Below are positions 12,156 through 39,017 of a stretch of 64,000 nt of DNA, one piece after another. Made by a program: the position numbers and the translations under genes. Each line of letters begins with the position of its first letter. Within the stretch, counting starts at the first letter, position 1. The stretch comes from Nitrospirota bacterium (GTDB lineage: Bacteria > Nitrospirota > Thermodesulfovibrionia > UBA6902): the NCBI GenBank assembly GCA_016213945.1, contig JACQZF010000045.1:1-64000 (forward strand). Direction: 5' to 3'. The notes beneath the pieces were generated by a model that was not told the DNA's origin, ran no database searches, and saw nothing but the letters and a program-made list of their open reading frames with translations.

Positions 12156-13796
12156 TTATGCTTCTATCGGCTCTTCTTTGAGAATTTCAGAGAGGTCTTC
12201 ATCAGGTGTTTTTATCGGCTTGATGTTGTAGTTCTGTACAAGGAAATCAAGCACGTTCGGCGTCAGGAATGATGGAAGTGTCGGCCCAAGCCTTATGTCC
12301 TTTATCCCGAGGTATAAAAGGGTCAGTAATATCGCAACCGCCTTCTGCTCGTACCATGAGAGCACCATTGAAAGCGGCAGTTCATTTACTCCCACGTTGA
12401 AGGCCTTTGAGAGTGCGAGTGCGATCTGTATCGCAGAATACGCATCATTGCACTGGCCTATATCAAGCAGGCGCGGGATACCTCCGATGTCGCCGAGGTC
12501 TTTATCAAAGAACCTGAACTTGCCGCATGCGAGTGTCAGGACCACACAATCCTTGGGGACCTTCTCCACAAACTCCGTGTAATAATTTCTGCCCGGTTTG
12601 GCCCCGTCGCAACCGGCAACGAGGAAGAAGTGGCGGATCGCACCGCTCTTTACTCCTTCGATTACTTTATCGGCAACACCCATCACGGCATTTCTTGCAA
12701 AGCCCGTCATTACGGTCTTGCCGGGGGTGTCCGCTGTAAAGCCGGGCAGTTCGAGCGCCCGTGCAATGGCAGGTGAAAAGTCTCTGCCGGAGATGTGTGT
12801 GACACCTGGCCAGCCGACCAGCCCGCAGGTAAAAACATTTTTCCTGTACGAATCGTGCGGCTTCTGCAGGCAGTTAGTCGTCATGACAATAGCCCCCGGA
12901 AACTTGGCGAATTCCATATGCTGGTTCTGCCACGCGGTACCATAGTGGCCGTAGAAGTGCGGATATTTTTTCAACTCGGGATAACCGTGCGTCGGAAGCA
13001 TTTCGCCGTGAGTGTAGATGTTAATTCCCTTGCCTTCGGTCTGCTTTAAAATTACCTCAAGGTCCTGCAGGTCATGTCCTGATACCAGTATCGCCTTTCC
13101 TTTTATCGCGCCGAGCGGCACCGCTGTGGGCACGGGATGCCCGTATGTGCCGGTGTTAGCGGCATCAAGCAGTTCCATGGCCTTAAGGTTTACCTCTCCG
13201 CACTTCAATGCGATCTCTACCCAGTTTTCAAGGGTAAGTTCTTTATTCAGCATGGAACGCAAGGCCTCGTGAACGTATGCGTATACGGCATCGTCCTTCC
13301 GGCCCAGCACCTGTGCGTGATAGGCATATGCCGCAATACCTTTGAGGCCGTACAGCGTAGTCTGCTCAAGCGATGCGACATCGGCGTTTACCTCGTTAGG
13401 CGTGATCGTTACAGCCGCGCCCTGTTTTACCATTTCCCCGATAATTTTCGCGGGCACAAATGCGGCGGCCTCTTCGCTGAACTCCGTATTTCCCATCGCC
13501 GATTGTATCTTTTTCTTAAGCGCCTCTCTCAGTTCCACACATTCATTGATAAGTGTGACGAACCTCTCAGGATCAAAGTTTACGTTTGTCAGTGTAGAGA
13601 AGAGCGCACTGACCGCGAACTCATCGACCTTTCGGTCCACGATCCCTGCAGTCCTCCCTTCAACCGCGTAAAGCGAAAGTCCTTTTAATGCATAAACTAA
13701 AAGGTCCTGCAGCGCGGCCACATCTGACTTCTTTCCGCAGGCGCCGATCTTGATACATCCTCCCTGTGCAACCTGTTCACATTGATTACAAAACAT
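12156..13796 (-). CDS. hcp: Hybrid cluster protein / hydroxylamine reductase
   Basis: A 546-residue cytoplasmic iron-sulfur enzyme that removes NO or hydroxylamine during nitrosative stress. The N-terminal cysteines C3, C6, C14 and C20 (CNQCEQ...GGCIKIGACGK) have the tight spacing of the anaerobe-type protein with a [4Fe-4S] cluster. Hybrid-cluster ligands are visible in GHDLQDLE, TTNCLQKP, VAGCDGAKPGR and LACGKFRFF. Length matches the family. AAGGAGG precedes the start. The upstream palindrome and divergent Crp/Fnr gene indicate induction by an HcpR-type regulator. Confidence 0.97.
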   Translation of the reverse strand: MFCNQCEQVAQGGCIKIGACGKKSDVAALQDLLVYALKGLSLYAVEGRTAGIVDRKVDEFAVSALFSTLTNVNFDPERFVTLINECVELREALKKKIQSAMGNTEFSEEAAAFVPAKIIGEMVKQGAAVTITPNEVNADVASLEQTTLYGLKGIAAYAYHAQVLGRKDDAVYAYVHEALRSMLNKELTLENWVEIALKCGEVNLKAMELLDAANTGTYGHPVPTAVPLGAIKGKAILVSGHDLQDLEVILKQTEGKGINIYTHGEMLPTHGYPELKKYPHFYGHYGTAWQNQHMEFAKFPGAIVMTTNCLQKPHDSYRKNVFTCGLVGWPGVTHISGRDFSPAIARALELPGFTADTPGKTVMTGFARNAVMGVADKVIEGVKSGAIRHFFLVAGCDGAKPGRNYYTEFVEKVPKDCVVLTLACGKFRFFDKDLGDIGGIPRLLDIGQCNDAYSAIQIALALSKAFNVGVNELPLSMVLSWYEQKAVAILLTLLYLGIKDIRLGPTLPSFLTPNVLDFLVQNYNIKPIKTPDEDLSEILKEEPIEA

Positions 13797-13856
13797 AGTG
13801 TTCCTCCTTAAATTAATTTGATCACGAAATCCGTAATCCGTTCATCATCTGTCTCT

Positions 13857-13862
13857 ATCATA
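13857..13862 (-). promoter_or_regulatory. Candidate -10 box of hcp
   Basis: TATGAT on the minus strand. With transcription starting about 7 bases on (near 13850), the palindrome at 13885-13898 is centred near -41.5, the class II activator position. No good -35 is needed in that arrangement. Confidence 0.45.
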
Positions 13863-13883
13863 ACCAGAGTTAAAGAGGATAAC

Positions 13884-13899
13884 CTTGACGTAAGTCAAG
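13884..13899. promoter_or_regulatory. Palindromic operator, probable HcpR/Crp-Fnr site
   Basis: CTTGACGTAAGTCAAG has perfect 6-bp arms around a 4-base centre and lies between hcp and the divergent regulator gene. The half-site TTGAC matches the Fnr/HcpR-type TTGA(C/T) half-site known from regulators of hcp genes in anaerobes. Confidence 0.7.
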
Positions 13900-13924
13900 A
13901 AACGAGAAAAAATTTCAGGGAAGG

Positions 13925-14007
13925 CTCTCCCCTTTACAAGGGGAGGCAGGGAGGAGTATGAGGAATTTATCTAAACCTCCCCAACCCCTCCTTATAAAGG
14001 AGGGGAG
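13925..14007. repeat. Compound inverted repeat upstream of the regulator
   Basis: Left part CTCCCCTTTACAAGGGGAG and right part CCTCCTTATAAAGGAGGGG are each a hairpin. Together with the GCAGGGAGG and CCTCCCCAACC flanks they form one large inverted repeat. It looks like an interspersed palindromic element inserted between operator and regulator gene. Confidence 0.6.
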
Positions 14008-14038
14008 TATTTATGAATAATGTATTAAAATACCCGGC

Positions 14039-14740
14039 ATGAGCGAAAAGAGAGCAGACCGCCTATCTCAATTGAGGAACATACCTGTTTTCATGAAGCT
14101 GCCGGATTCAGCGCTGGGGATGCTTCACGGTATTTTAGCCGCGCGTTCATTTCACAAGGGAGAAAACATCTTTACCGAGGGCAGCGAATCCACCGGCTTT
14201 TACATAGTCACTAAAGGCCGGGTGAAGGTCTTTAAACTGTCGGCGGAGGGAAAGGAGCAGATACTTCATATCGTCGGGGCAAAAGAGCTTCTCGGCGCCG
14301 TCTCCGCTTTTGCCGGAGCGCCGTATCCCGCACATGCCGATGCAATGGAAAAGACCACGGCATTCTTTCTGCCAAGAAAAGATTTTCTCGCCCTGATCCA
14401 GAAAGAGCCTTCCGTAGTCATGAACATGATGGCGAATCTCGCCATGCGCCTTCAGCATTTTACCAGGCTGATCGAGGACCTTTCTCTGAAGGAAGTGCCG
14501 GGAAGGCTTGCCGCTTATCTTCTTTATCTGTGTGAACGGACGGGTTGCTCTGACGTTCTCGAAATAGATATTTCCAAAGGGCAGCTCGCGAGCCTGCTCG
14601 GAACAATACCGGAAACCCTTTCAAGAATCCTCCGTAAAATGAGCGATAAGGGCATCCTCGAAGTCAGGGGGCGAAGGGTCAGGCTGCTGAACAGGAAGGC
14701 CCTTCATGATATTGTCAACGGCGAGAAGATGGGACTTTAA
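14039..14740 (+). CDS. hcpR: Crp/Fnr-family regulator, HcpR-like
   Basis: 233 residues: a cyclic-nucleotide-type beta barrel (residues ~20-130, GENIFTEGSESTGFYIVTKG), a dimer helix (LAMRLQHFTRLIEDLSLKEV), and a winged helix with recognition segment GTIPETLSRILRKM. No Fnr-type N-terminal cysteines, so it does not carry an Fnr cluster. HcpR senses NO through heme in characterised bacteria. Divergence from hcp and the shared palindrome support the name. No Shine-Dalgarno is visible; a TATTAA at 14023-14028 ends 10 bases before the ATG, so the mRNA may be nearly leaderless. Confidence 0.8.
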   Translation: MSEKRADRLSQLRNIPVFMKLPDSALGMLHGILAARSFHKGENIFTEGSESTGFYIVTKGRVKVFKLSAEGKEQILHIVGAKELLGAVSAFAGAPYPAHADAMEKTTAFFLPRKDFLALIQKEPSVVMNMMANLAMRLQHFTRLIEDLSLKEVPGRLAAYLLYLCERTGCSDVLEIDISKGQLASLLGTIPETLSRILRKMSDKGILEVRGRRVRLLNRKALHDIVNGEKMGL

Positions 14741-14750
14741 CAGGAGCGGG

Positions 14751-17642
14751 TCAGGTTTTAGATAAAGTAAGCGCCGCATACTTCAATAAGTCAAGGTGAC
14801 CTTTCCCAAGGAAGGCTTCAACATTATCATCGTCCAGGGGTCTTGATATCAAAAATCCCTGGGCAAATTCGCAGTTCAATGATTTTATCTGCGTAAGCTG
14901 TTCCTCTGTTTCCACCCCTTCCGCGATAACTTCCATATTCAGGCTGTGGGCCAGCGTTGATATGGCCTTAACGATCTCAATATTTTCCCCGCGTTGGATC
15001 CTTGTGACAAAAGAGCGGTCGATCTTTAACACATCAATGGGGAAGTGGTGCAGGTAACTTAAGGATGAATAGCCTGTGCCGAAATCGTCAATGTGTATTT
15101 GAACGTGCAGGTCTTTCAGCTTCGACAGCAGAGGAGATACTGTTGAAACATTTTCCATAAACATGTTCTCGGTGATCTCCAGTATCAGGGTGTTTGGAGC
15201 AACTCCTGTTTCATCGAGGACTTTTTGTACCGCCTTAAAGAGGCTGGGGAACAACTGTTTGCTGGAAATATTTACGCTCATTGTCAGCGGCCGGGCTGAA
15301 GGATATTTTGCCTGCAATGAGCGCAGCCGCAGACATGCCTGTTGAAGCACCCATTCACCAAGCTGGATGATCAAACCTGTTTCTTCAGCCGTCTCGATGA
15401 ATTCCGCCGGGTAAATAAGGCCGCGTGCCGGATGCTGCCATCTGACAAGGGCCTCAAATCCCGTTATCATTCCGCTGTGCAGCGAAATTATAGGCTGATA
15501 GTGGAGCAGAAATTCATTTTGTTTGACTGCCTGCCTGAGGTCTGTCTCCATCTGCATCCGTGCCAAAGCATTATCGTACATTCTCTTGTCGAATATTTCA
15601 TAACGTGCGCTGCCTCCGTTCTTTGCGCAGTACATCGCGATGTCCGCGTCACGCAGGAAATGATCGGGAAGTTCATGCCCTATCGTGCTGAAAGTTATTC
15701 CTATGCTCGCTGAAGTGACCACGTCCTGCCCTTGTAAATTTAAAGGCCGCGACAGATTTTCCTGTATACGCCCGGCAACGTGAAGCGCTTCGTTTTTGTC
15801 TTTCAGGTCTTCAATGAGAATGGCAAACTCGTCCCCTCCAAAACGCGCAACTGTGTCACCGGGACGCAGGCTCTCCTGCAGTCTCTTGCTGATTGTAATA
15901 AGCAGTTGGTCACCCGCGGCGTGACCCAGACTGTCGTTGAGCACTTTGAAACGGTCAATATCCAGAAACAGCACGGCAAATAAATAATTGCCGTTACGCT
16001 TTTTGCGATTCAATGCGTGCCTGAGACGGTCCATGAAAAGGGCACGATTTGGAAGCCCTGTGAGAGAATCATGCAGGGCATCGTGCATAAGCTGCTCTTC
16101 AGCGGTCTTACGTTCAGTAATGTCCGTCATGGAGCCTGATATCCGGTAAGCCGTTCCGGTGGAATCGCAGACTGCCTGACCGCGGCTCAGCATCCAGCGG
16201 TACTTTCCGTCCTTGTGCAGCATGCGGTGTTCATTTTTCAAGTTGGGCGAGTTCCCTTTGATGTGGGCCGCCATTTCTTTTTCCACATGCGCCCGGTCGT
16301 CAGGGTGTACGCGTTTGAGCCATTCATCAGGAGAATCTTTGATCTCATTCTCCGCAAAGCCGAGCATGGATTTCCAGCGGGGAGAATAATAGACCTTGTT
16401 GGTTTTCAGGTCCCAGTCCCATAAACCGTCGTTGGCCCCCCGTGCGGCAAGCACATATCTTTCTTCGCTTTCACGCAGGGCGTCCTCGGTGAGCTTGCGG
16501 TCTGTTATGTCCCTGATGTATTCAACAACATGAGTAACATTGCCTTCTTCATTAAAAACCGGATACGTGTAAATCTCCATCCATATTTCCCCTCCATCCG
16601 GGTAAGCGTAACGCTTGTTCTTTGCGCAGGGGTCCTTTGATCTGAAGGTCTTTTCCACTATGCAATCTTCGCACACCACGTTTCTTTTTTGTAAGATCTC
16701 ATAGCATTTGCCTGAAGTAACACATTCCTGGTTTACTTTCCTTAGTTCTGCATACGCCTCATTAAACCTTACTATATTGTATTCACTGTCAATAATGCAG
16801 AACGGGTCGCGAATGCTGTCAAACATTGTGCTTAAAAACCTCTCGGATTTTATAAGCGCCTCTTCCGTTTGCGTGCGAACGGTTATTTCCCGCTGACTTT
16901 TCTCATGTCCGTCTTTTATCGCCGCGCTCATTGCATTAAAATTCAGCGCGAGTTCCCCGAATTCCGTGTTGTCATGATAGGGAATTACAACTCCGAAATT
17001 CCCTTTCGATATCATCCTTGTCGCCTTTACAAGCTCATTTACAGGACGCGTTATAAATCTCTTCAGGTTTATTGCTACGATAACGCTGAAAAGAAACGCC
17101 ATTATCAGTGTAATAAACAGAATTTTCCTGACGTCCTTTATCCGCTGCAATGTACCGGTTGTTATCGCTTCAAGATTGCCGCTTGCCTTGTGAGACATGT
17201 CATTTATAAGGTCAAGTATGCTGTCTCCGATTGCCGCTGCTTCGTTTTTATGCTCTATCCTTGCTGAATTTTCATGAACAGTCAGATAAAGGCTTAAGGC
17301 AGTTTTATAGTCTTTTATAAGTAATTGGACCCTTATTATACGATCGGTCAGGCTTGGGGGGTGATGACATGAAGTGCATTTACCGGCTAATGTACCGAGA
17401 TTCATCATATTTTCTTCCAGCGAATTAGTATCGCTGGAAAAGGGCGTATCTAAGGTGTACAGGCCGGATTGTACGGATTGTACCTTGATTATTAAAGACC
17501 TCCTGAGTTCCTCCACCTGGTGCAGCTTAACAATATAATCCATCTCTTCCGAGGTGTCCGTTATATACAATACGGCCACCGAAGCGCCCACGGTGTAGAA
17601 TATCAAAAGAGCCAGTAACGATAAGACTATCTTGCGTTTCAT
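14751..17642 (-). CDS. Membrane GGDEF-EAL protein with CxxCH heme sensor
   Basis: 963 residues. TM1 (~4-26), periplasmic domain with GKCTSCHHPP at ~88-96 (CxxCH, covalent heme c site), TM2 (~174-194), HAMP, PAS (with CYEILQKRNVVCEDCIVEK), a second PAS, then GGDEF and EAL. GGDEF is intact (ARFGGDEFAIL) with the inhibitory RxxD site (RPGD) five residues upstream. EAL is intact (FEALVRW, DDFGTGYSS, KIDRSF, EGVET). It can therefore both make and degrade c-di-GMP in principle. It is the last gene of the TonB-receptor operon but is separated from the previous gene by about 260 bases, so it may also have its own promoter. AAGG lies 10 bases upstream. Confidence 0.92.
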   Translation of the reverse strand: MKRKIVLSLLALLIFYTVGASVAVLYITDTSEEMDYIVKLHQVEELRRSLIIKVQSVQSGLYTLDTPFSSDTNSLEENMMNLGTLAGKCTSCHHPPSLTDRIIRVQLLIKDYKTALSLYLTVHENSARIEHKNEAAAIGDSILDLINDMSHKASGNLEAITTGTLQRIKDVRKILFITLIMAFLFSVIVAINLKRFITRPVNELVKATRMISKGNFGVVIPYHDNTEFGELALNFNAMSAAIKDGHEKSQREITVRTQTEEALIKSERFLSTMFDSIRDPFCIIDSEYNIVRFNEAYAELRKVNQECVTSGKCYEILQKRNVVCEDCIVEKTFRSKDPCAKNKRYAYPDGGEIWMEIYTYPVFNEEGNVTHVVEYIRDITDRKLTEDALRESEERYVLAARGANDGLWDWDLKTNKVYYSPRWKSMLGFAENEIKDSPDEWLKRVHPDDRAHVEKEMAAHIKGNSPNLKNEHRMLHKDGKYRWMLSRGQAVCDSTGTAYRISGSMTDITERKTAEEQLMHDALHDSLTGLPNRALFMDRLRHALNRKKRNGNYLFAVLFLDIDRFKVLNDSLGHAAGDQLLITISKRLQESLRPGDTVARFGGDEFAILIEDLKDKNEALHVAGRIQENLSRPLNLQGQDVVTSASIGITFSTIGHELPDHFLRDADIAMYCAKNGGSARYEIFDKRMYDNALARMQMETDLRQAVKQNEFLLHYQPIISLHSGMITGFEALVRWQHPARGLIYPAEFIETAEETGLIIQLGEWVLQQACLRLRSLQAKYPSARPLTMSVNISSKQLFPSLFKAVQKVLDETGVAPNTLILEITENMFMENVSTVSPLLSKLKDLHVQIHIDDFGTGYSSLSYLHHFPIDVLKIDRSFVTRIQRGENIEIVKAISTLAHSLNMEVIAEGVETEEQLTQIKSLNCEFAQGFLISRPLDDDNVEAFLGKGHLDLLKYAALTLSKT

Positions 17643-20489: not shown

Positions 20490-21464
20490 TTAATAAATTT
20501 TAAATGCATTCTTAACTACCGTCTCAGGAAAATTTATTTTCATGTGTTCCGCAGTCTTCAGATTCAGGGAATAAATCACGGTACGCGGCGCAGCAACGGG
20601 AATTGAACTTACACTCGAGCCGCTCAGTATCTTCAAGGCCATCTCGCCGCACTGCGCTCCAATACTTTTGTAGTCCCTGTCAAGGGAATACAGGGCCCCT
20701 GCCTTCACCCATTCGGAGGAAAGCCCGATGAAAGGAATGCGGTTGCGATATGAGAAAAGCAGAATGTGCTTTGCCGTCTCGGGGGTAAATACCATGTTGT
20801 CGTTTATGCCCCAAAAAACATCCGCCTTATTTGATATAGCGTCCAGGGCCGCCGGAATCTCTCCTGGACTGCTGATTTTTCTTACCTCAAGCCTGAAATT
20901 CATTTCTTTTGCAACGTGTCCTGCAGTATCAATCATTTGCTGGATCTGGCTGTAGCCGTATATGGTCCCTACCGTTTTAACTTCGGGAAGAAAGCGTTTC
21001 ATGATTTCAAACTGTGTTCTCACGGAAAAGTCAAGTACGACTCCAGTGGCATTTAATGATTTACTGAGCTTGTCGGTTCCCATGGTTAACCCAGTGATAA
21101 CAGGGACGTCAGTTATCTTTTCGAGGACCGTGTCTGCAGCAAGGGTTCCGAGGCTGTAAATCAGATGATAGTTTTTCTTTTTTATATCCTCAACTGCCTG
21201 TGCTGCTTTTGACACATCGCCTTTTAAGGGATAAATATCATAACGAACAGAGGCCTTGCTGGCAGAAAGATTCTCCCTGAACCCTTCAAGGGCGCTGCTG
21301 TACGGTAATGCGTCATGACTTAAAAGAACAGCCACCCGCACTTCCTCTGCAGGGGAGATCGGCTGTGCTGAGAGTGCAAGCAAGAGCACAATCAGGATAA
21401 AAATGATTCTCATAGGTGACAATGTAGCCCCCGGATTTATTGCAAGAATATTTTCAAAAAGCAT
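20490..21464 (-). CDS. Periplasmic ABC-type substrate-binding protein (PF04392)
   Basis: 324 residues from the ATG at 21464, which has AAGG upstream and overlaps the receptor gene by 11 bases. A second ATG at 21413 starts a cleaner signal peptide (MRIIFILIVLLLALSAQ). The mature part matches ABC_sub_bind: VRVAVLLSHDALPYSSALEG, YSLGTLAADTVLEKITDVPV, GTIYGYSQIQQMIDTAG, FWGINDNMVF. No ABC permease or ATPase is next to it; it lies between a TonB receptor and two c-di-GMP sensors, suggesting a sensing rather than transport role. Ligand unknown. Confidence 0.88.
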   Translation of the reverse strand: MLFENILAINPGATLSPMRIIFILIVLLLALSAQPISPAEEVRVAVLLSHDALPYSSALEGFRENLSASKASVRYDIYPLKGDVSKAAQAVEDIKKKNYHLIYSLGTLAADTVLEKITDVPVITGLTMGTDKLSKSLNATGVVLDFSVRTQFEIMKRFLPEVKTVGTIYGYSQIQQMIDTAGHVAKEMNFRLEVRKISSPGEIPAALDAISNKADVFWGINDNMVFTPETAKHILLFSYRNRIPFIGLSSEWVKAGALYSLDRDYKSIGAQCGEMALKILSGSSVSSIPVAAPRTVIYSLNLKTAEHMKINFPETVVKNAFKIY

Positions 21465-23541
21465 AAGTGACCTTAACTCTAACAGTCCTGCTGTCCTGCT
21501 CTATGGTATTCTGAAAATGTTCCATAGCTCCAAGGTCTCCATACTTTTTATTAAAAAGGTTATATACACTTGCAGATGCTTCAAGGGTTTTCCATAAATT
21601 CTTAGTATAAAGGGTCCCGTTTGTCAGGAAAAATGAACCTGCATAGCGGTCAAAAGGAAACCCCTCTTCCCTGAGTCCCGCCGGGAGACCTTCCTGCTTC
21701 TCCATGGAAAGCGTTCTTCTCCGGCCCGTGTACAGTTCTTCAAGGCCCAGGAATATTTTCTCTTTTATGACCGGGATGATCACATGGGCCTTTGCAAGAT
21801 GTTTTGGAGAATTCGAAAGCGCCCTTCCCGTCTGTTTGTCTTTAGTTTTCTGGTATGTGTAACTGACACTGCCCTCAAGTCCGCTATCACTTTTCCCTTC
21901 CATTTCAAACTCCGCACCGCCTGCAGTAACGTCATCATTATTATTAAATACCAGCAGCCCGTCATCAGGGTCCGTTTCCTGTTTGATGAGGTCGTTGAGC
22001 GTGTAATAAAAACCGGCAACTGTCCCGCGAAGATATTTCCCGATATATTGCTCATACACCAGTTCATATGTATTTATGGTTTCCGGTTTTAAATCGTTAT
22101 TGGCTTTTGCAGTGACCCCTCCGTCATTATAATAAAGTTCATATACGCTGGGAGCGCGGAAGGCGCGGCCATATATTGCCTTGAAGGTTGTTTTTTCAAG
22201 AGGGTTATAAATCAGTGCCACGCGGGGATTTGTGGTGCCCCCGAAGGCCTTATAATAATCGTGCCGCAGCCCTCCGTTAAGGATAACGTGTTCGCTTATA
22301 TTAAATTCGTCCTGGAGGAACAAGGCCCAATTATCGTTATGACGCCTGTCATCCAGTCGGCCCCAGTCTGAGGCCCCTGTATAGGAAACTTTCTGAACCT
22401 GTGTTTGATTGGCATGAAATGAGGCCCCGAATATTGTCCGGTGTTTATCTGTGAAAGATTTTGATACCTGCAGTTCTCCGGAAAACCATTTCCCTCTTCC
22501 CGAATCATTTAAAATAACAACGCCTGCTTCACCCTCTGCCGGATTTCCTTCATAGGGATATTCCCCGGAATAATTGTAATAGTTGTAATTGAGACGCCCG
22601 AAAACAGACAGCCGGTTTTCAAAGGTATGTTCATATTTCACATCTATCCATGAACGTTCATCTTTCGTATATGTTGTATCACTGTTGAATATGGTTCCAT
22701 AGGAGGCAGTAGGAATGCCTTTTTTCCTGCTGTGATAATTGCCCTGTATCGTAAAATCTTTAAACTTGATTCCGGTAAAGAAGTTTTTGTATCGGGCATA
22801 ATCTGAATTGTTGGCAATGCCGCTGTTAGTACCCGGATGATCAAATTCCCGGTAATACAAATGCTCGTCTCCGGCGCTGTCAAAGAAAGAAGATGAAAGT
22901 AAAAGTTCCAGCCCATTCTGATATCTGTTGCCGTAACTGATCCTGCTTTTGTAAGTATCAAATGTGCCTGCCTCACCGGATATCTCCACTCCCTTATAAC
23001 CGCGGCCTGTTTTTGTTATCACATTTATTACTCCGAAAAAGGCATTGCTGCCATATAATGAAGAACTGGGACCGCGTACAACTTCGATATAATCGATGAG
23101 GTCTATTTCCAGCGGAAACTCCGTTCCTATTAACGGCGCGTCAAAAATATTGTCGTTGATGCGGATTCCGTCAACGAGAACTAAAATACGGTTACTGTAA
23201 TCCGAAGGTAAACCAAAACCCCGGACCCCCAGATACTTATAATTTCTGTCATTGGTAACATAAAATCCTCTGATACTTTCCAGAATTTCACCGAAATCAC
23301 GATAACCGTATTTTCTGATCTCATCCGCGGTGATAATGCTTACAGATGAAGGGGCCTCTGTCACCTTCTGTTCATACTTGGAGGCGCTGTATACAGAAGG
23401 GATTTCCTGAAAAAGCATCATTTCATCGGTTGGACTAACAGGTTCTGAGAATGAATCCGACTGGATGTAAGCAAGCTGGGAAAACCATACCGTACAGAAA
23501 AATAAAGTTATAAGTTTAAATTTCCCGTTATTTTTTTTCAC
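21454..23541 (-). CDS. TonB-dependent outer-membrane receptor
   Basis: About 695 residues from a GTG at 23541 with GGGGGG 5 bases upstream; a TTG at 23559 would add six residues. Signal peptide KLITLFFCTVWFSQLAY. The plug domain follows (SVSIITADEIRKYGYRDFGE, VRGFGLPSDYSNRILVLVDG, IEVVRGPSSSLYGSNAFFGV), then a 22-strand-type barrel with TFKAIYGRAFRAPSVYELYY and NTYELVYEQ, ending in VRVKVTYAF with a terminal Phe. It resembles the BtuB/CirA group. Substrate unknown. It heads an operon preceded by a predicted c-di-GMP riboswitch. Confidence 0.93.
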   Translation of the reverse strand: MKKNNGKFKLITLFFCTVWFSQLAYIQSDSFSEPVSPTDEMMLFQEIPSVYSASKYEQKVTEAPSSVSIITADEIRKYGYRDFGEILESIRGFYVTNDRNYKYLGVRGFGLPSDYSNRILVLVDGIRINDNIFDAPLIGTEFPLEIDLIDYIEVVRGPSSSLYGSNAFFGVINVITKTGRGYKGVEISGEAGTFDTYKSRISYGNRYQNGLELLLSSSFFDSAGDEHLYYREFDHPGTNSGIANNSDYARYKNFFTGIKFKDFTIQGNYHSRKKGIPTASYGTIFNSDTTYTKDERSWIDVKYEHTFENRLSVFGRLNYNYYNYSGEYPYEGNPAEGEAGVVILNDSGRGKWFSGELQVSKSFTDKHRTIFGASFHANQTQVQKVSYTGASDWGRLDDRRHNDNWALFLQDEFNISEHVILNGGLRHDYYKAFGGTTNPRVALIYNPLEKTTFKAIYGRAFRAPSVYELYYNDGGVTAKANNDLKPETINTYELVYEQYIGKYLRGTVAGFYYTLNDLIKQETDPDDGLLVFNNNDDVTAGGAEFEMEGKSDSGLEGSVSYTYQKTKDKQTGRALSNSPKHLAKAHVIIPVIKEKIFLGLEELYTGRRRTLSMEKQEGLPAGLREEGFPFDRYAGSFFLTNGTLYTKNLWKTLEASASVYNLFNKKYGDLGAMEHFQNTIEQDSRTVRVKVTYAF

Positions 23542-23568
23542 AGCAACCCCCCATTTCAATTTTATCCC

Positions 23569-23609
23569 AAAAAAATTTAAAGCCCACCGTTGAATTTAAA
23601 GGGTGAGCT
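23569..23609 (-). terminator. Riboswitch expression platform: intrinsic terminator
   Basis: On the minus strand AGCTCACC (23609-23602) pairs with GGTGGGCT (23588-23581), one G-U pair, followed by TTTAAATTTTTTT. It lies between the aptamer and the receptor start. The 3' end of the aptamer, GTGGAGCT (23626-23619), can instead pair with AGCTCAC, an apparent antiterminator that competes with aptamer helix P1 (CCAC/GTGG). Read this way, ligand binding would favour termination. Confidence 0.75.
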
Positions 23610-23618
23610 ATGATGTCA

Positions 23619-23709
23619 AGCTCCACTTCGGCAGCCCCTCTACCCCTAAAGCTCCGGGGCAGGTTGCTTTGTGTCACCTGTTTACACAGGTTTTACCCTT
23701 TCGGTGGCT
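23619..23709 (-). promoter_or_regulatory. Cyclic di-GMP-I (GEMM) riboswitch aptamer
   Basis: Read on the minus strand, the leader has the GEMM landmarks in order. P1 5' strand CCAC; GGGTAAAACC; P2 CCTGT-GTAA-ACAGG with a GNRA tetraloop; GGTGACACAAAGC (consensus GGGACGCAAAGC); P3 CTGCCCC...GGGGTAG; GGGGCTGCCGAAG (consensus GGGUUGCCGA); and P1 3' strand GTGG. One conserved G is A here (GACAC instead of GACGC). The operon it precedes encodes two GGDEF-EAL proteins, exactly the context known for this RNA class. Confidence 0.75.
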
Positions 23710-34579: not shown

Positions 34580-36157
34580 TTATGAATCATTCTCCCTCAC
34601 TACTTCGCGTGCGGTTTTGTCTTCACGAAGCCGCAGGAAAACGGGCTGTCTCATGATGCCGTCTTCTGTCCAGCCAGTGAAGGTGACCTCGCACTTTACC
34701 CAGGTGTCCGCGGTATTGGTATCCGGTTTAATTGTAAAGGGGCATTCTTTTTGGACCAAGGGCTTCAATTTATTAAATATTGCCTTTAGATCTCTTTCCG
34801 AGAACCCGCCTCCCGAATGGCCGATATATTTCAACTCGTCCCCCTCGTACACGCCAAGGACAAGGGACCCGAAATACTTCCTGCCTGCTCCCGGTTCCGT
34901 GAACCCCGCAATCACGCACTCCTGCGTGAGCCGCGCCTTCACCTTCAGCCACTCCCGGCTTCTCTTTCCCATCTGGTAAACGCTTTGGGAATGTTTGGCG
35001 ATGATACCCTCCAGCTCCTTTCCCTTAACAACATTGAAAAACAGGACTCCCTCTTTCAATACGTGATCGCTGAATTTTATTTTTGGAGAAGACGGAAGGA
35101 TTTTTTTCAGCAGTTCTTTTCTCCTGAGCAGGGGCAGGTTTGTCAAATCATGTCCCCTGAAGTGCAGGAGATCAAAGACATAATAGAGCAGATGACCGCT
35201 TTTGGATTTCCGGTAATCCTGCAGCAACTGAAAATCCGGACGCCCCTGATCATCCACAACAACAATCTCTCCATCCAGAACAGCATCAAATCCGAGGTCA
35301 CGCAACGAGTCGGCAACGGGGAGAAACTTTTGAGTGAGTGAGATCCGGTTGCGGGAATAAAGCGAAACGTCGCCGTCCCTGATCTCTGCAATGGCCCGGT
35401 AGCCGTCCCATTTCATCTCAAAGACCCAGTCAGGATGATCAAACGGTTTTTTGGCCAGGGTCGCGAGCATAGGTTTTATATTGTGCGGCATAGGGCTGAG
35501 CGGCGCGTCCTTCAGATCTTCCTCTTCAAGCGCTTCGCTCAGACGTATCTGTTTCACTTTTTTTTGCCTGAAAGATTTCCCAGTCCCGGCTTCGGCAACT
35601 TTCTCAAGCGTCTTGCCCGAAACTGCAGAACGGCTCTCTTTCAGAATGGATACCTCGCTTGCATAACGGTCTTTCTTCTTAATAAGCAGCCACGACTTCT
35701 CATCTTTCCGCATCCTCACGAGGGCGAATTCTCCCTGAAGCTTTTCTCCATTGAGGACAAACTTCAGGTCTCCCTTCTTTAATCCTTCCCTGAGAAGCTT
35801 CTCGCTATCTTTTTTGTCTTTTGCTGCAGGGTGACTATAAAAGCCCCGGTCCCAGATGATTACGCTTCCGGCTCCGTAATTGCCCTCAGGGATGACGCCT
35901 TCAAAATCTTTGTAATCAAACGGATGGTCTTCAACCATCATGGCGAGCCTTTTTATGGAAGGGGCCAGTGAGGGGCCCTTGGGCACAGCCCAGCTCTTCA
36001 GGACGCCGTCCAGCTCAAGCCTCAGGTCATAATGGAGGTTTCGCGCCGCGTGCTTATGAACGACAAAAGTGAGCTGGTCTCCTTCAGGGCGCACCTCCGG
36101 TTTCGGTTCGGGGGTTTTCTCGAATTCCCGTTTGGATTTGTATTCTCTTAATCCCAT
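34580..36157 (-). CDS. ligD: LigD-type 3'-phosphoesterase and ATP-dependent DNA ligase
   Basis: 525 residues. The N-terminal phosphoesterase (~25-150) has HKHAARNLHYDLRLELDG, LKSWAVPKGPS and EGNYGAGSVIIWD. The ligase follows from ~225, with adenylation motif I EMKWDGYRAI (Lys in KWDG), LDGEIVVVD, EGIIAKH and REWLKVKAR. It seals broken DNA ends in bacterial non-homologous end joining. The polymerase domain found fused in Mycobacterium and Pseudomonas LigD is missing and encoded separately two genes upstream (36469-37371). Confidence 0.95.
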   Translation of the reverse strand: MGLREYKSKREFEKTPEPKPEVRPEGDQLTFVVHKHAARNLHYDLRLELDGVLKSWAVPKGPSLAPSIKRLAMMVEDHPFDYKDFEGVIPEGNYGAGSVIIWDRGFYSHPAAKDKKDSEKLLREGLKKGDLKFVLNGEKLQGEFALVRMRKDEKSWLLIKKKDRYASEVSILKESRSAVSGKTLEKVAEAGTGKSFRQKKVKQIRLSEALEEEDLKDAPLSPMPHNIKPMLATLAKKPFDHPDWVFEMKWDGYRAIAEIRDGDVSLYSRNRISLTQKFLPVADSLRDLGFDAVLDGEIVVVDDQGRPDFQLLQDYRKSKSGHLLYYVFDLLHFRGHDLTNLPLLRRKELLKKILPSSPKIKFSDHVLKEGVLFFNVVKGKELEGIIAKHSQSVYQMGKRSREWLKVKARLTQECVIAGFTEPGAGRKYFGSLVLGVYEGDELKYIGHSGGGFSERDLKAIFNKLKPLVQKECPFTIKPDTNTADTWVKCEVTFTGWTEDGIMRQPVFLRLREDKTAREVVRENDS

Positions 36158-36159
36158 GT

Positions 36160-36429
36160 TTACCTGGAAAACTTCCGGGCAGCGCGTGACCGAGCTTTGG
36201 CGGCCTCTTCTGCACGGCTCCTCGGCGGGGCATTAGTCTCAAGCGTACTCAGAAGTTTTGAGAAAGCTGCCGTTATGTCTTCAACAGCCGCAAGGAACGC
36301 AGCTTCGTTGGCCTTCGACGGCTTGTGGAAGCCGCTTACTTTTCTCACGAATTGCAGTGCGGCCCCGCGTATCTCCTCGTCCATCACAGGCGGTTCGAAG
36401 TTGAAGAGGGTCTTGATGTTTCTACACAT
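36160..36429 (-). CDS. DUF2277 family protein
   Basis: 89 residues starting MCRNIKTLFNFEPPVMDEEI, with AALQFVRKVSGFHKPSKANE and an Arg/Ala-rich tail, an exact fit to DUF2277 (PF10041). Function unknown. It lies inside the end-joining operon, 2 bases before the ligase gene, which suggests a DNA-repair link or simple hitchhiking. Related proteins occur in many bacteria without LigD. Confidence 0.92.
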   Translation of the reverse strand: MCRNIKTLFNFEPPVMDEEIRGAALQFVRKVSGFHKPSKANEAAFLAAVEDITAAFSKLLSTLETNAPPRSRAEEAAKARSRAARKFSR

Positions 36430-36444
36430 ATGCGTTACCCTGAT

Positions 36445-36472
36445 GCAGGGGCTGGTTTCAAACCGTCCCTAC
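36445..36472. repeat. GTAGGGACGGTTT palindrome, copy 3
   Basis: GCAGGGGCTGGTTTCAAACC followed by GTCCCTAC. On the minus strand its end supplies the TAG stop of the LigD polymerase gene, as copy 1 does for trpE. Confidence 0.7.
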
Positions 36473-37371
36473 AGATGAACTATCTTCTGTTTTTTCGTAA
36501 GCAACTCCCGGAAAAGATCGCCGTTTTTCTCTAACATGCTTATAGCATCCGAATGCATAACAACCATTTTATCAGGATCGCCCTGCTTGTCCAAAATTTC
36601 CAACTCCTCCCATTCAAGGGGGAACGAGACAGTCGGTTTCTCCCTTGCGCGCAGGGAGTAGACGCAGATCATTGTCTTTGAGGAGTCGTTCTGAGACCAG
36701 TTGATGAAAACTTTTTTTATACGTTGTTCCTTCGCCATCTTCGCGGTGACCAGTTCGGGATAGTTGCGCTGAAGGACTTCCGCCACGGCCCTTGAAAATC
36801 TCTTGGTGTCCTCAAAGGTCGCCTCTTTGCGGTTCAAAGGGACATATACGTGGAATCCTTTTTTGCCCGATGTCTTTGCATAGCTTTCAAGCCGCATTTG
36901 TAAAAGCAGGTCACGAAGTATCCGGGCCACCTTCGAGCAATCCAGGATGTTTGCCTGATCTCCGGGATCGAGATCAAAGACTATTGAATCAGGCGTATCA
37001 GGAGAAGCGGCCCTTGCCAGAGGAACATGCAGTTCAAGAGACGCAAGGTTCTCCACCCATATGAGCGTCTCAAGATCATTGACAAGGCAGACAGTCATCC
37101 GCTCTTCTTTATGATGCACCTCCGCTGTCTTCACCCAGGCGGGACGATGTGAAGGGCAGCGCTTCTCGAAAAAGAAATCCTTTTCCGTTCCATCGGGATA
37201 TCGCTTTAAGGTGAGCGCCCGGTCTTTCAAATGGGGGAGGATGAAGTCCGCGATCCGGCGGTAGTATTCAAGGACATGGGCCTTTGTGAAACCATAGGAG
37301 GGATAGAGGTCCTTTTTCAGGTTCGATAAGGAAAGTCTTCTCCCGGCAGTCTCAACGATTTTTTTGCTCAC
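36469..37371 (-). CDS. LigD polymerase (archaeo-eukaryotic primase fold)
   Basis: A 300-residue stand-alone end-joining polymerase. Visible motifs: LKRYPDGTEKDFFFEKRCP, IVFDLDPGD (metal-binding DxD ~135-137), KTSGKKGFHVYVPL, and FINWSQNDSSKT (~220). In characterised homologues this last motif is DWSQN or DYLxN, whose Asp is the third metal ligand; here it reads Asn. Either activity is altered or the motif varies in this lineage. It overlaps the Ku gene by 4 bases (ATGA). Confidence 0.93.
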   Translation of the reverse strand: MSKKIVETAGRRLSLSNLKKDLYPSYGFTKAHVLEYYRRIADFILPHLKDRALTLKRYPDGTEKDFFFEKRCPSHRPAWVKTAEVHHKEERMTVCLVNDLETLIWVENLASLELHVPLARAASPDTPDSIVFDLDPGDQANILDCSKVARILRDLLLQMRLESYAKTSGKKGFHVYVPLNRKEATFEDTKRFSRAVAEVLQRNYPELVTAKMAKEQRIKKVFINWSQNDSSKTMICVYSLRAREKPTVSFPLEWEELEILDKQGDPDKMVVMHSDAISMLEKNGDLFRELLTKKQKIVHL

Positions 37372-38153
37372 CGGTGCTCTTTCACTTTGCGCATGCTCTC
37401 CTCCAGAACTGCGACCAGATCGACCACGCCTTCTTCCACTTCTTCCTCAATTTCAGGGGCTTCCACTGTTCCTTTTTCTTTCGCTTTCTTTTCTAAAAGC
37501 TTTGTGATCTTCTTCCGGCGTTCGTCGGCGTATTTGTCCGGATGGAAGTCGGCGGTCATTTCTTTAATGATCTTTTTCATGCGGCTTTTCTCTTCGGGTC
37601 CGATCTTTTCTTCTTTCGGCAGGAGGTCCTCTTCGGGAAGTATTTCCCCGCTGTAGTGAAGCGTGATCAGCGTCAGCGCCCCGTCCATGCTCTTGACGGC
37701 AACGAGATACTCACGTTCACGCAATACGAACTTTGCGAGCCCGGCTTTGTGCGTCTGGCTCATCACCTCAGCCAGCAGCCGGTAGGCCTTTTCGCCCCCT
37801 TTGGAAGGAACGAGATAATACGGGTGATCATAATAGACCGGGGCTACATCTTTAATATCGATGAACTCAAGTATTTCAATCGTCCGGCTTCTCTCTGGGG
37901 AAACGGATTCCAGTTCCTTATCCGTTATCACGATGTAGTTGTCAGGGGCGATCTCATATCCCATGACGATCTCATCCGCCGGGACTATAGTTTCTTCTTT
38001 CGGACAATACATTTTTCTTGCGAGGGGGGAATAATCCTTGTTGTGAAGCATGCGAAAAGAGACACGCCCCGTCTCGACAGCCCTCACCAGTTTTACAGGT
38101 ATCGCAACAAGGCTGAAACTTATTGTCCCGTCCCATATTTCCTGTAATGCCAT
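37368..38153 (-). CDS. ku: Ku protein 1, end-joining DNA-end binder
   Basis: 261 residues starting MALQEIWDGTISFSLVAIPV, with AAGGAA 6 bases upstream; an upstream ATG at 38186 is unlikely. The Ku beta-barrel region has VRAVETGRVSFRMLHNKDYS, YYDHPYYLVPSKGGEKAYRL and KFVLREREYLVAV. It ends in a Glu-rich stretch and VDLVAVLEESMRKVKEHR, the short C-terminal segment that recruits LigD. It binds double-strand ends as a dimer. Confidence 0.95.
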   Translation of the reverse strand: MALQEIWDGTISFSLVAIPVKLVRAVETGRVSFRMLHNKDYSPLARKMYCPKEETIVPADEIVMGYEIAPDNYIVITDKELESVSPERSRTIEILEFIDIKDVAPVYYDHPYYLVPSKGGEKAYRLLAEVMSQTHKAGLAKFVLREREYLVAVKSMDGALTLITLHYSGEILPEEDLLPKEEKIGPEEKSRMKKIIKEMTADFHPDKYADERRKKITKLLEKKAKEKGTVEAPEIEEEVEEGVVDLVAVLEESMRKVKEHR

Positions 38154-38180
38154 TTTGTTCCTTAATGGGCCATTAGCTAT

Positions 38181-38230
38181 CAGCAATCAGCTGTCAGCTT
38201 TAGAAAGTCTTAGCTGACTGCTGATTGCTG
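38181..38230. repeat. Inverted repeat between the two ku genes
   Basis: CAGCAATCAGCTGTCAGCT (38181-38199) and AGCTGACTGCTGATTGCTG (38212-38230) pair at 18 of 19 positions. The same core occurs at 8647-8667. Confidence 0.75.
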
Positions 38231-38246
38231 TCCGCTGAGAGCTGTT

Positions 38247-39017
38247 TCATGCTACCTGCTTCAGACTCGCCTTCAGCGCTTCAAGAAGTTTGTCCGGCGT
38301 TGTGGGTTTTAAATGCCTGGGGCGCAGGAGCGCGATCTTTTCTCCACGCGTTTTTTTATCGATCAAATCCTGAAGCTTTTTTTGATGTTCATTTTCGAAT
38401 TTCTGAGGCTGAAAAGGGGCTGACAACTGATCGATCAGGTCTCTTGCGATCTTCAGTTCTTTTTCAGACAGGGGAGTTTTCTGAAGTTCAAGAGATTTTA
38501 CCGCTACAACTTCATCTGCATACCGCAGAGTGCTCAGGCAGAGGACCTTCCCGCTTATCTGCAGGGCCCCGAGATAGGACCGTCTTCTCATGGTCCAGGT
38601 GCATATCCCTGCCGTACCCGTTTCCTTCAATGCACCGGCAAGAGCGTTATATTCTTTTACCGTGGTGTCTGGCTCCAGATAGTACATGCGTTCAAAGAAG
38701 ACTGGATCGATCTGTCCGGTCTTGACGAATTCGTGGACCTCGATCATCCGGCCGTCTTCGGGATCGGTCTGTTCAAGCTCCGACGGGTCGACGATGATAT
38801 ATTTTCTCTCCTCCAGTTCAAACCCTTTGGCCTGTTCTTCCGGCGGCACCGGAACTTTTTCATACGCGCAGACCATCTGCTGGTGCAGTTTCACATGATC
38901 ACGCTTGTGCAGAAGATGAAACTGGATCCGGTCCTGCTGTACCGCGGTATGCAGCTTCACGGGCACATTGATATCGCTGAATTGGATATACCCTTTCCAG
39001 AGCGTCCTTCCCGACAT
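38247..39017 (-). CDS. ku: Ku protein 2
   Basis: 256 residues starting MSGRTLWKGYIQFSDINVPV, with AGGAGG upstream. The Ku core is clear (VKLHTAVQQDRIQFHLLHKRD, FFERMYYLEPDTTVKEYNAL, WTMRRRSYLGAL), ending TTPDKLLEALKASLKQVA. It differs from the first Ku in most positions, so the two are old paralogues that may form a heterodimer. It heads the operon ku2-ku1-polymerase-DUF2277-ligase. Confidence 0.94.
   Translation of the reverse strand: MSGRTLWKGYIQFSDINVPVKLHTAVQQDRIQFHLLHKRDHVKLHQQMVCAYEKVPVPPEEQAKGFELEERKYIIVDPSELEQTDPEDGRMIEVHEFVKTGQIDPVFFERMYYLEPDTTVKEYNALAGALKETGTAGICTWTMRRRSYLGALQISGKVLCLSTLRYADEVVAVKSLELQKTPLSEKELKIARDLIDQLSAPFQPQKFENEHQKKLQDLIDKKTRGEKIALLRPRHLKPTTPDKLLEALKASLKQVA

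Follow-up and report, generated by a model that had tools for sequence, protein, structure and literature searches.

The protein P0001, encoded at positions 14751–17642 on the reverse strand of the window (the whole 64,000-nucleotide stretch of Nitrospirota DNA that was analysed), is predicted to be a four-helix heme-c receptor that converts a change at its heme iron into a change of c-di-GMP. We give this explanation as a whole a probability of about 65%. Cys89 and Cys92, in the turn that joins helices 2 and 3, would bind one c-type heme covalently, with His93 as the proximal ligand. The trigger would be the oxidation state of the heme iron, or the displacement of a weak sixth ligand by a small molecule, for example NO. 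The change at the iron would then shift the bundle, and the shift would pass through the second transmembrane (TM) span, the HAMP domain and two PAS domains to the GGDEF-EAL region, altering c-di-GMP. In most relatives the bundle probably receives a second input from a docked PhnD-type protein. The cyclic-dinucleotide level would also feed back on transcription, through a GEMM-I riboswitch and its terminator in front of the cluster. P0001 probably turns a chemical signal outside the inner membrane into a change of this biofilm messenger. If this is true, bacteria that are mostly uncultured gain a direct means of setting c-di-GMP by the redox or NO state of the periplasm. The helical scaffold with its strict CxxCHH would also be a second one, and sensors would then have acquired heme c on more than one occasion.

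Architecture of P0001 and its predicted heme-attachment motif

P0001 comprises 963 amino acids, arranged as a TM span, a periplasmic four-helix domain, a second TM span, HAMP, two PAS domains, GGDEF and EAL; all positions given for it are on the reverse strand. The first TM span (17562–17633, about residues 4–27, within model helix 2–63) and the second (17061–17129, about residues 172–194) were placed by hydropathy, inside hydrophobic stretches of about residues 4–29 and 170–198. Between them lies the all-helical sensor domain (17130–17561, about residues 28–171), for which there is no Pfam model; residues 1–194 matched no Pfam family. Pfam matches were obtained for the HAMP domain (16914–17060), the first PAS domain (PAS_4, 16494–16823) and the second PAS domain (PAS_3, 16131–16394). 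The GGDEF domain (15609–16079) has an intact GGDEF motif and the I-site RPGD (15855–15866), and the EAL domain (14838–15542) retains the EAL, EITE, DDFGTG and EGVE motifs; judged by these motifs, both enzyme domains look intact. The contrast between the I-sites of P0001 and its sister protein P0002, already pointed out in the original prediction, was reproduced, as P0001 reads RPGD-x5-GGDEF and P0002 reads HKND-x5-GGDEF, where the I-site Arg is absent.

The first PAS domain contains Cys307, Cys313, Cys324, Cys327 and Cys339 in a GKCY...VCEDC pattern. A GKKCY...CxxC form is present in the orthologues L046, L048 and L049 and unmatched in seven others, and the pattern is a possible metal or Fe-S site.

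A CxxCH heme c motif had been claimed for the periplasmic part of P0001, and this was confirmed. The motif CTSCHH (residues 89–94; 17361–17378) contains the sole CxxCH of the protein and sits between the two hydrophobic spans, where Cys89 and Cys92 are the only cysteines. The numbering alone had to be amended, as GKCTSCHHPP covers residues 87–96 and not 88–96. When the segment between the spans was shuffled, CxxCH arose in 0.05% of trials. C89, C92, H93 and H94 were identical in 67/67 relatives, down to about 27% identity, in a set of distinct members of which 20 were chosen among the most divergent and whose independence is weakened by being drawn mostly from one phylum. The retention of all four residues is decisive evidence that CxxCH is not a chance motif. 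Identity to P0001 among the sampled full-length family proteins ranged from 20 to 72%.

The source genome also encodes five Cytochrom_C_asm ORFs and several ResB ORFs, which constitute a system-II set for cytochrome c maturation. Taken together, the strict conservation, the topology and the maturation genes lend good support to a heme c in a periplasmic sensor coupled to GGDEF-EAL, and covalent attachment of heme at the CxxCH of P0001 is very likely.

Fold of the periplasmic domain and its possible inputs

The AlphaFold2 model, obtained with a 31-row alignment, showed helices at residues 2–63, 72–91, 96–121 and 125–212 and no strand, with a mean pLDDT of 85.7, and placed CxxCHH in the turn linking helix 2 to helix 3. 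The original prediction had proposed structure prediction of this region but had missed the fold, which the model presents as an all-helical bundle. The order of TM span, up-down helical bundle, TM span and HAMP is that of four-helix-bundle sensors such as NarQ, Tar and Adeh_2942. The best VIA-align match by Z was the structure of LytS together with the binding protein XylFII (5xsj, Z 15.9), and PcaY and McpN, which are four-helix periplasmic ligand domains, were also among the fold neighbours. As Z values of about 13 are common for helical bundles, such matches name a generic fold and not kinship. The only described helical sensor family of Pfam among the 25 families listed at E 1 was HBM, in one of the 31 members (E 0.026); a missing match of this kind does not disprove kinship.

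Counting 1.5 Å per residue along the predicted helices, the near-invariant E44, L46, R47 and M149 lie level with C89–H93. The mean conservation of this heme layer was 2.28 bits against 2.17 bits for the rest of the domain, a weak difference, so the layer argument is carried by a few near-invariant residues. Arg47 (17502–17504), identical in 66/66 relatives having the position, is from its helix register a candidate heme-propionate or anion contact. Met149 (17196–17198) is kept in 61/67 relatives and is, in most members, the leading candidate for a sixth heme ligand that could be displaced; it is I or L in the other six, so Met ligation cannot be universal. Gln58 is kept in 64/66 relatives.

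Of the 42 other unique members with 1 kb or more of sequence ahead of the gene, 26 have a PhnD-type (PF12974) gene in the same orientation 0–79 nt upstream; the window gene is excluded from the count. This partner gene, usual in the relatives, had been overlooked, and its position suggests that the PhnD-type protein is a second input to the sensor in the relatives having the gene. It is absent at the window gene, where the sister gene lies 261 nt upstream instead, and no remnant of a solute-binding protein (SBP) gene was seen in the 261-nt gap. The partnership bears on a reading in which the heme c is held but does not sense, stabilising the bundle or passing electrons, while the SBP or another ligand is the true input. 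The PhnD-type gene adjoining most members and the LytS-XylFII complex as the best fold match by Z both agree with it. So does L005:75–2736 in the same genome, where the gene of a PhnD-type binding protein precedes that of a GGDEF-like protein lacking CxxCH, a pair that resembles a non-heme version of the PhnD-receptor pairing. The motif is, however, kept also in every member without a PhnD-type neighbour, the window gene included, and a purely structural heme would be unusual in a one-heme sensor bundle. We therefore regard a non-sensing heme as unlikely, although not far-fetched.

The second histidine of the motif raises two further readings. In multiheme cytochromes, the second His of CxxCHH ligates another heme. 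H94, kept in 67/67 relatives, could accordingly ligate a heme across the receptor dimer or a second heme in a partner, forming a two-heme redox gate. With only one CxxCH per chain, we find this distinctly unlikely. In the explanation that we prefer, H94 may serve in a pocket or across the dimer. Less probable still is a site without heme, at which CxxCHH binds a metal (Zn, Cu or Fe) or forms a redox-active disulfide. Two Cys and two consecutive His can hold a metal, and H94, which plain heme attachment does not need, is as invariant as H93. Against this, a periplasm-facing CxxCH is the normal substrate of the heme lyase-type machinery, for which several genes are present, and the exact C-x2-C-H spacing occurs in 67/67 relatives.

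It is improbable that P0001 senses nitrate or nitrite in the manner of NarX/NarQ while also carrying heme, Arg47 then corresponding to Arg50 of NarQ, which binds nitrate. NarQ was the top Foldseek match of the model (E 1.2e-3, followed by Adeh_2942) and L46-R47 can be aligned with L49-R50 of NarQ, but an E-value of about 1e-3 is modest, conservation does not extend to the remainder of the NarQ P-box, and a profile search of PDB sequences returned only chance-level helical matches, with NarQ absent.

For the heme-iron sensor that we prefer, stable O2 binding would be the least favoured signal compared with redox and NO, by analogy with the sCache_heme family (PMC12889525).

Gene neighbourhood and possible riboswitch control

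Upstream of P0001, on the same reverse strand, are the genes of the sister P0002 (17904–20480), of P0003, an ABC_sub_bind periplasmic binding protein (20490–21464), and of a TonB-dependent receptor (21454–23559, Pfam match). The best match of the TonB receptor below threshold was a heme receptor family. P0002 has the architecture sCache_4-HAMP-PAS-GGDEF(HKND)-EAL. It had been described as CHASE8-like and without heme; the absence of any periplasmic Cys agrees with the latter, whereas sCache_4 scored above the cut-off and CHASE8 below it, so that the CHASE8-like label fits only roughly. That both GGDEF-EAL genes belong to one operon is a possibility: the TonB, ABC_sub_bind and sister genes are contiguous or overlapping, whereas P0001 lies 261 nt beyond the sister. 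No terminator-like site was found in this gap and promoter-like sites were no more frequent than expected. Transcription may continue through the gap into P0001.

In a genome of the same genus, the heme gene (L016) and the three-gene TonB/ABC_sub_bind/sister module (L096 and L111) occupy separate loci; against this background, the originally proposed operon with two inputs is no more than a possibility. A pyruvate phosphate dikinase gene is situated divergently upstream at at least nine family loci, as it is in the window, and this recurring neighbour makes the heme-sensor locus look old. The TonB module was probably a later insertion in the lineage of the window.

Genes for Hcp (hydroxylamine reductase family) and a Crp/Fnr regulator adjoin the P0001 gene (window 12156–14740). 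Neither was found in the flanks of the relatives at E 1e-6, and a reading of NO as the signal from these neighbours was dropped because they are not conserved beside the relatives. Elsewhere in the window (34580–39017), LigD-like ligase and primase ORFs occur with two adjacent Ku-like ORFs, apparently a non-homologous end-joining cluster.

The cluster is headed by a GEMM-I (c-di-GMP-I) aptamer (RF01051) at 23627–23707 on the reverse strand, which scored 60.2 bits against a gathering threshold of 35. An intrinsic terminator hairpin lies behind it (23581–23609, reverse strand), with an 8-bp stem and then a U-rich tail. This c-di-GMP-type riboswitch had escaped the original prediction. The source genome has only two GEMM-I aptamers; the second (L036:3421–5819) immediately precedes the gene of a predicted exported protein of 742 aa, in whose sequence fibronectin-like and Cys-rich repeats could be read.

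Aptamers were located ahead of seven family loci (L042, L044, L023, L026, L027, L031 and the window), perhaps not all independent, as L026, L027 and L031 are possibly close relatives. A terminator hairpin with a U-rich tail followed the aptamer in the window, L042, L044, L023 and L111; none was found in L027, and none that was convincing in L026 and L031. The 5' part of the terminator, ACCCUUU, complements AAAGGGU of the aptamer in the window, L042 and L044, and the L023 terminator includes 11 nt complementary to this core. In our own alignment, the AAAGGGU core has a G at what is presumably the Vc2 G20 position.

GEMM-I riboswitches exist in both ON and OFF versions. In the ligand-free lowest-energy fold of the window leader (−51.6 kcal/mol), ACCCUUU and AAAGGGU were paired and the terminator was open; when P1 was forced, the terminator formed (−44.2 kcal/mol). 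These predicted folds suggest an OFF switch, although the energies alone do not settle the direction. The Cd1 riboswitch is of the OFF type, and a G at the Vc2 G20 position is a selectivity factor and not a hard filter (PMC9262584); some GEMM-I aptamers may bind cGAMP (PMC6456294). The arrangement suggests that the riboswitch gives cyclic-dinucleotide feedback on transcription of the cluster, and its recurrence makes such feedback open to reporter testing in laboratory strains. In another genome, the TonB module has its own riboswitch (L111) away from the heme gene, and the window riboswitch may belong to this module.

Family distribution and comparison with known systems

Relatives of the N-terminal 215 residues of P0001 were detected in 109 of the 396 genomes of the phylum, and the family is widespread in Nitrospirota. 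A scan of named genomes, with a six-row family alignment as the query, returned mostly Nitrospirae/Thermodesulfovibrionia MAGs together with a few others, namely single Deltaproteobacteria, Desulfuromonadales and Deferribacteres MAGs. Among the 36 full-length family proteins scanned, HAMP was present in all 36, GGDEF and EAL in 12, HisKA in 24 and HATPase_c in 23. A paralogue in the same genome (L035:5300–8471) carries a heme domain 45% identical to that of P0001 on a hybrid histidine kinase. It adjoins a PhnD-type binding protein, with cobalamin-type methyltransferase-like ORFs beyond.

In the open-access literature, subscription papers aside, we found neither a helical heme-c sensor family or domain nor PhnD proteins with heme-c receptors. 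The helical family of predicted heme-c sensors is real and apparently undescribed. A broader proposal is that an undescribed four-helix heme-c family, independent of sCache_heme, uses its bundle to integrate heme and a PhnD-type SBP, with c-di-GMP or kinase output and with some operons under riboswitch control. We offer this as a tentative view, at rather less than even odds.

To our knowledge, periplasmic c-type heme sensing has so far been seen in Cache-fold (PAS-like) domains. The sCache_heme family (DUF3365, PF11845; Tll0287-like, GSU0582, GSU0935) resembles P0001 in having a periplasmic sensor, one CxxCH and HAMP, with a covalent c-type heme that is predicted here. That family has a Cache fold with CXXCH conserved at ~99%, its signalling members show NO-sensor-like chemistry, and it is common in Nitrospirota with HAMP and kinase, MCP or GGDEF/EAL outputs (PMC12889525). 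Its fold is mixed alpha/beta with CxxCH between beta3 and beta4, whereas the P0001 domain is predicted to be all-helical. PF11845 had no match in P0001 at E 0.01 and did not figure in the 25 families that were listed at E 1 for the 31 members; it occurs at three other loci of the source genome. A profile-profile comparison with PF11845 aligned only 27 columns around CxxCH, with a probability of 46%. Membership of P0001 in sCache_heme was rejected, as the profile, the fold and the profile-profile comparison all stood against it.

DcrA of Desulfovibrio vulgaris was the first c-type heme periplasmic receptor reported; it is said to sense redox potential or O2 and has a cytoplasmic PAS domain, as P0001 does (PMC8396549). 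Unlike P0001, it has a chemotaxis output and is placed among the PAS-type heme c sensors. NarQ/NarX and Adeh_2942 share the fold and the TM-bundle-TM-HAMP topology of P0001, but they have no heme, and their input is a direct small ligand or unknown. XylFII-LytS resembles the P0001 family in its four-helix periplasmic domain and in the binding-protein gene near the receptor, an example of the general principle of binding-protein-activated receptors (PMC11113362). It differs in lacking heme and in its sugar-type SBP, the partner in the P0001 family being of the PhnD type.

Heme state governs a c-di-GMP enzyme in DosP (PdeO) and DgcO (PMC8846402), and a Met is the displaceable heme ligand of DosP (reference 229, as cited in PMC8846402). 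Unlike P0001, these proteins are cytoplasmic and hold heme in PAS or globin domains without CxxCH. The periplasmic domain of the CHASE4 diguanylate cyclase PA14_53310 binds heme (PMC13277305); this binding is reversible, of the b type and within a CHASE4 fold, whereas P0001 is predicted to hold a covalent c-type heme in a helical bundle.
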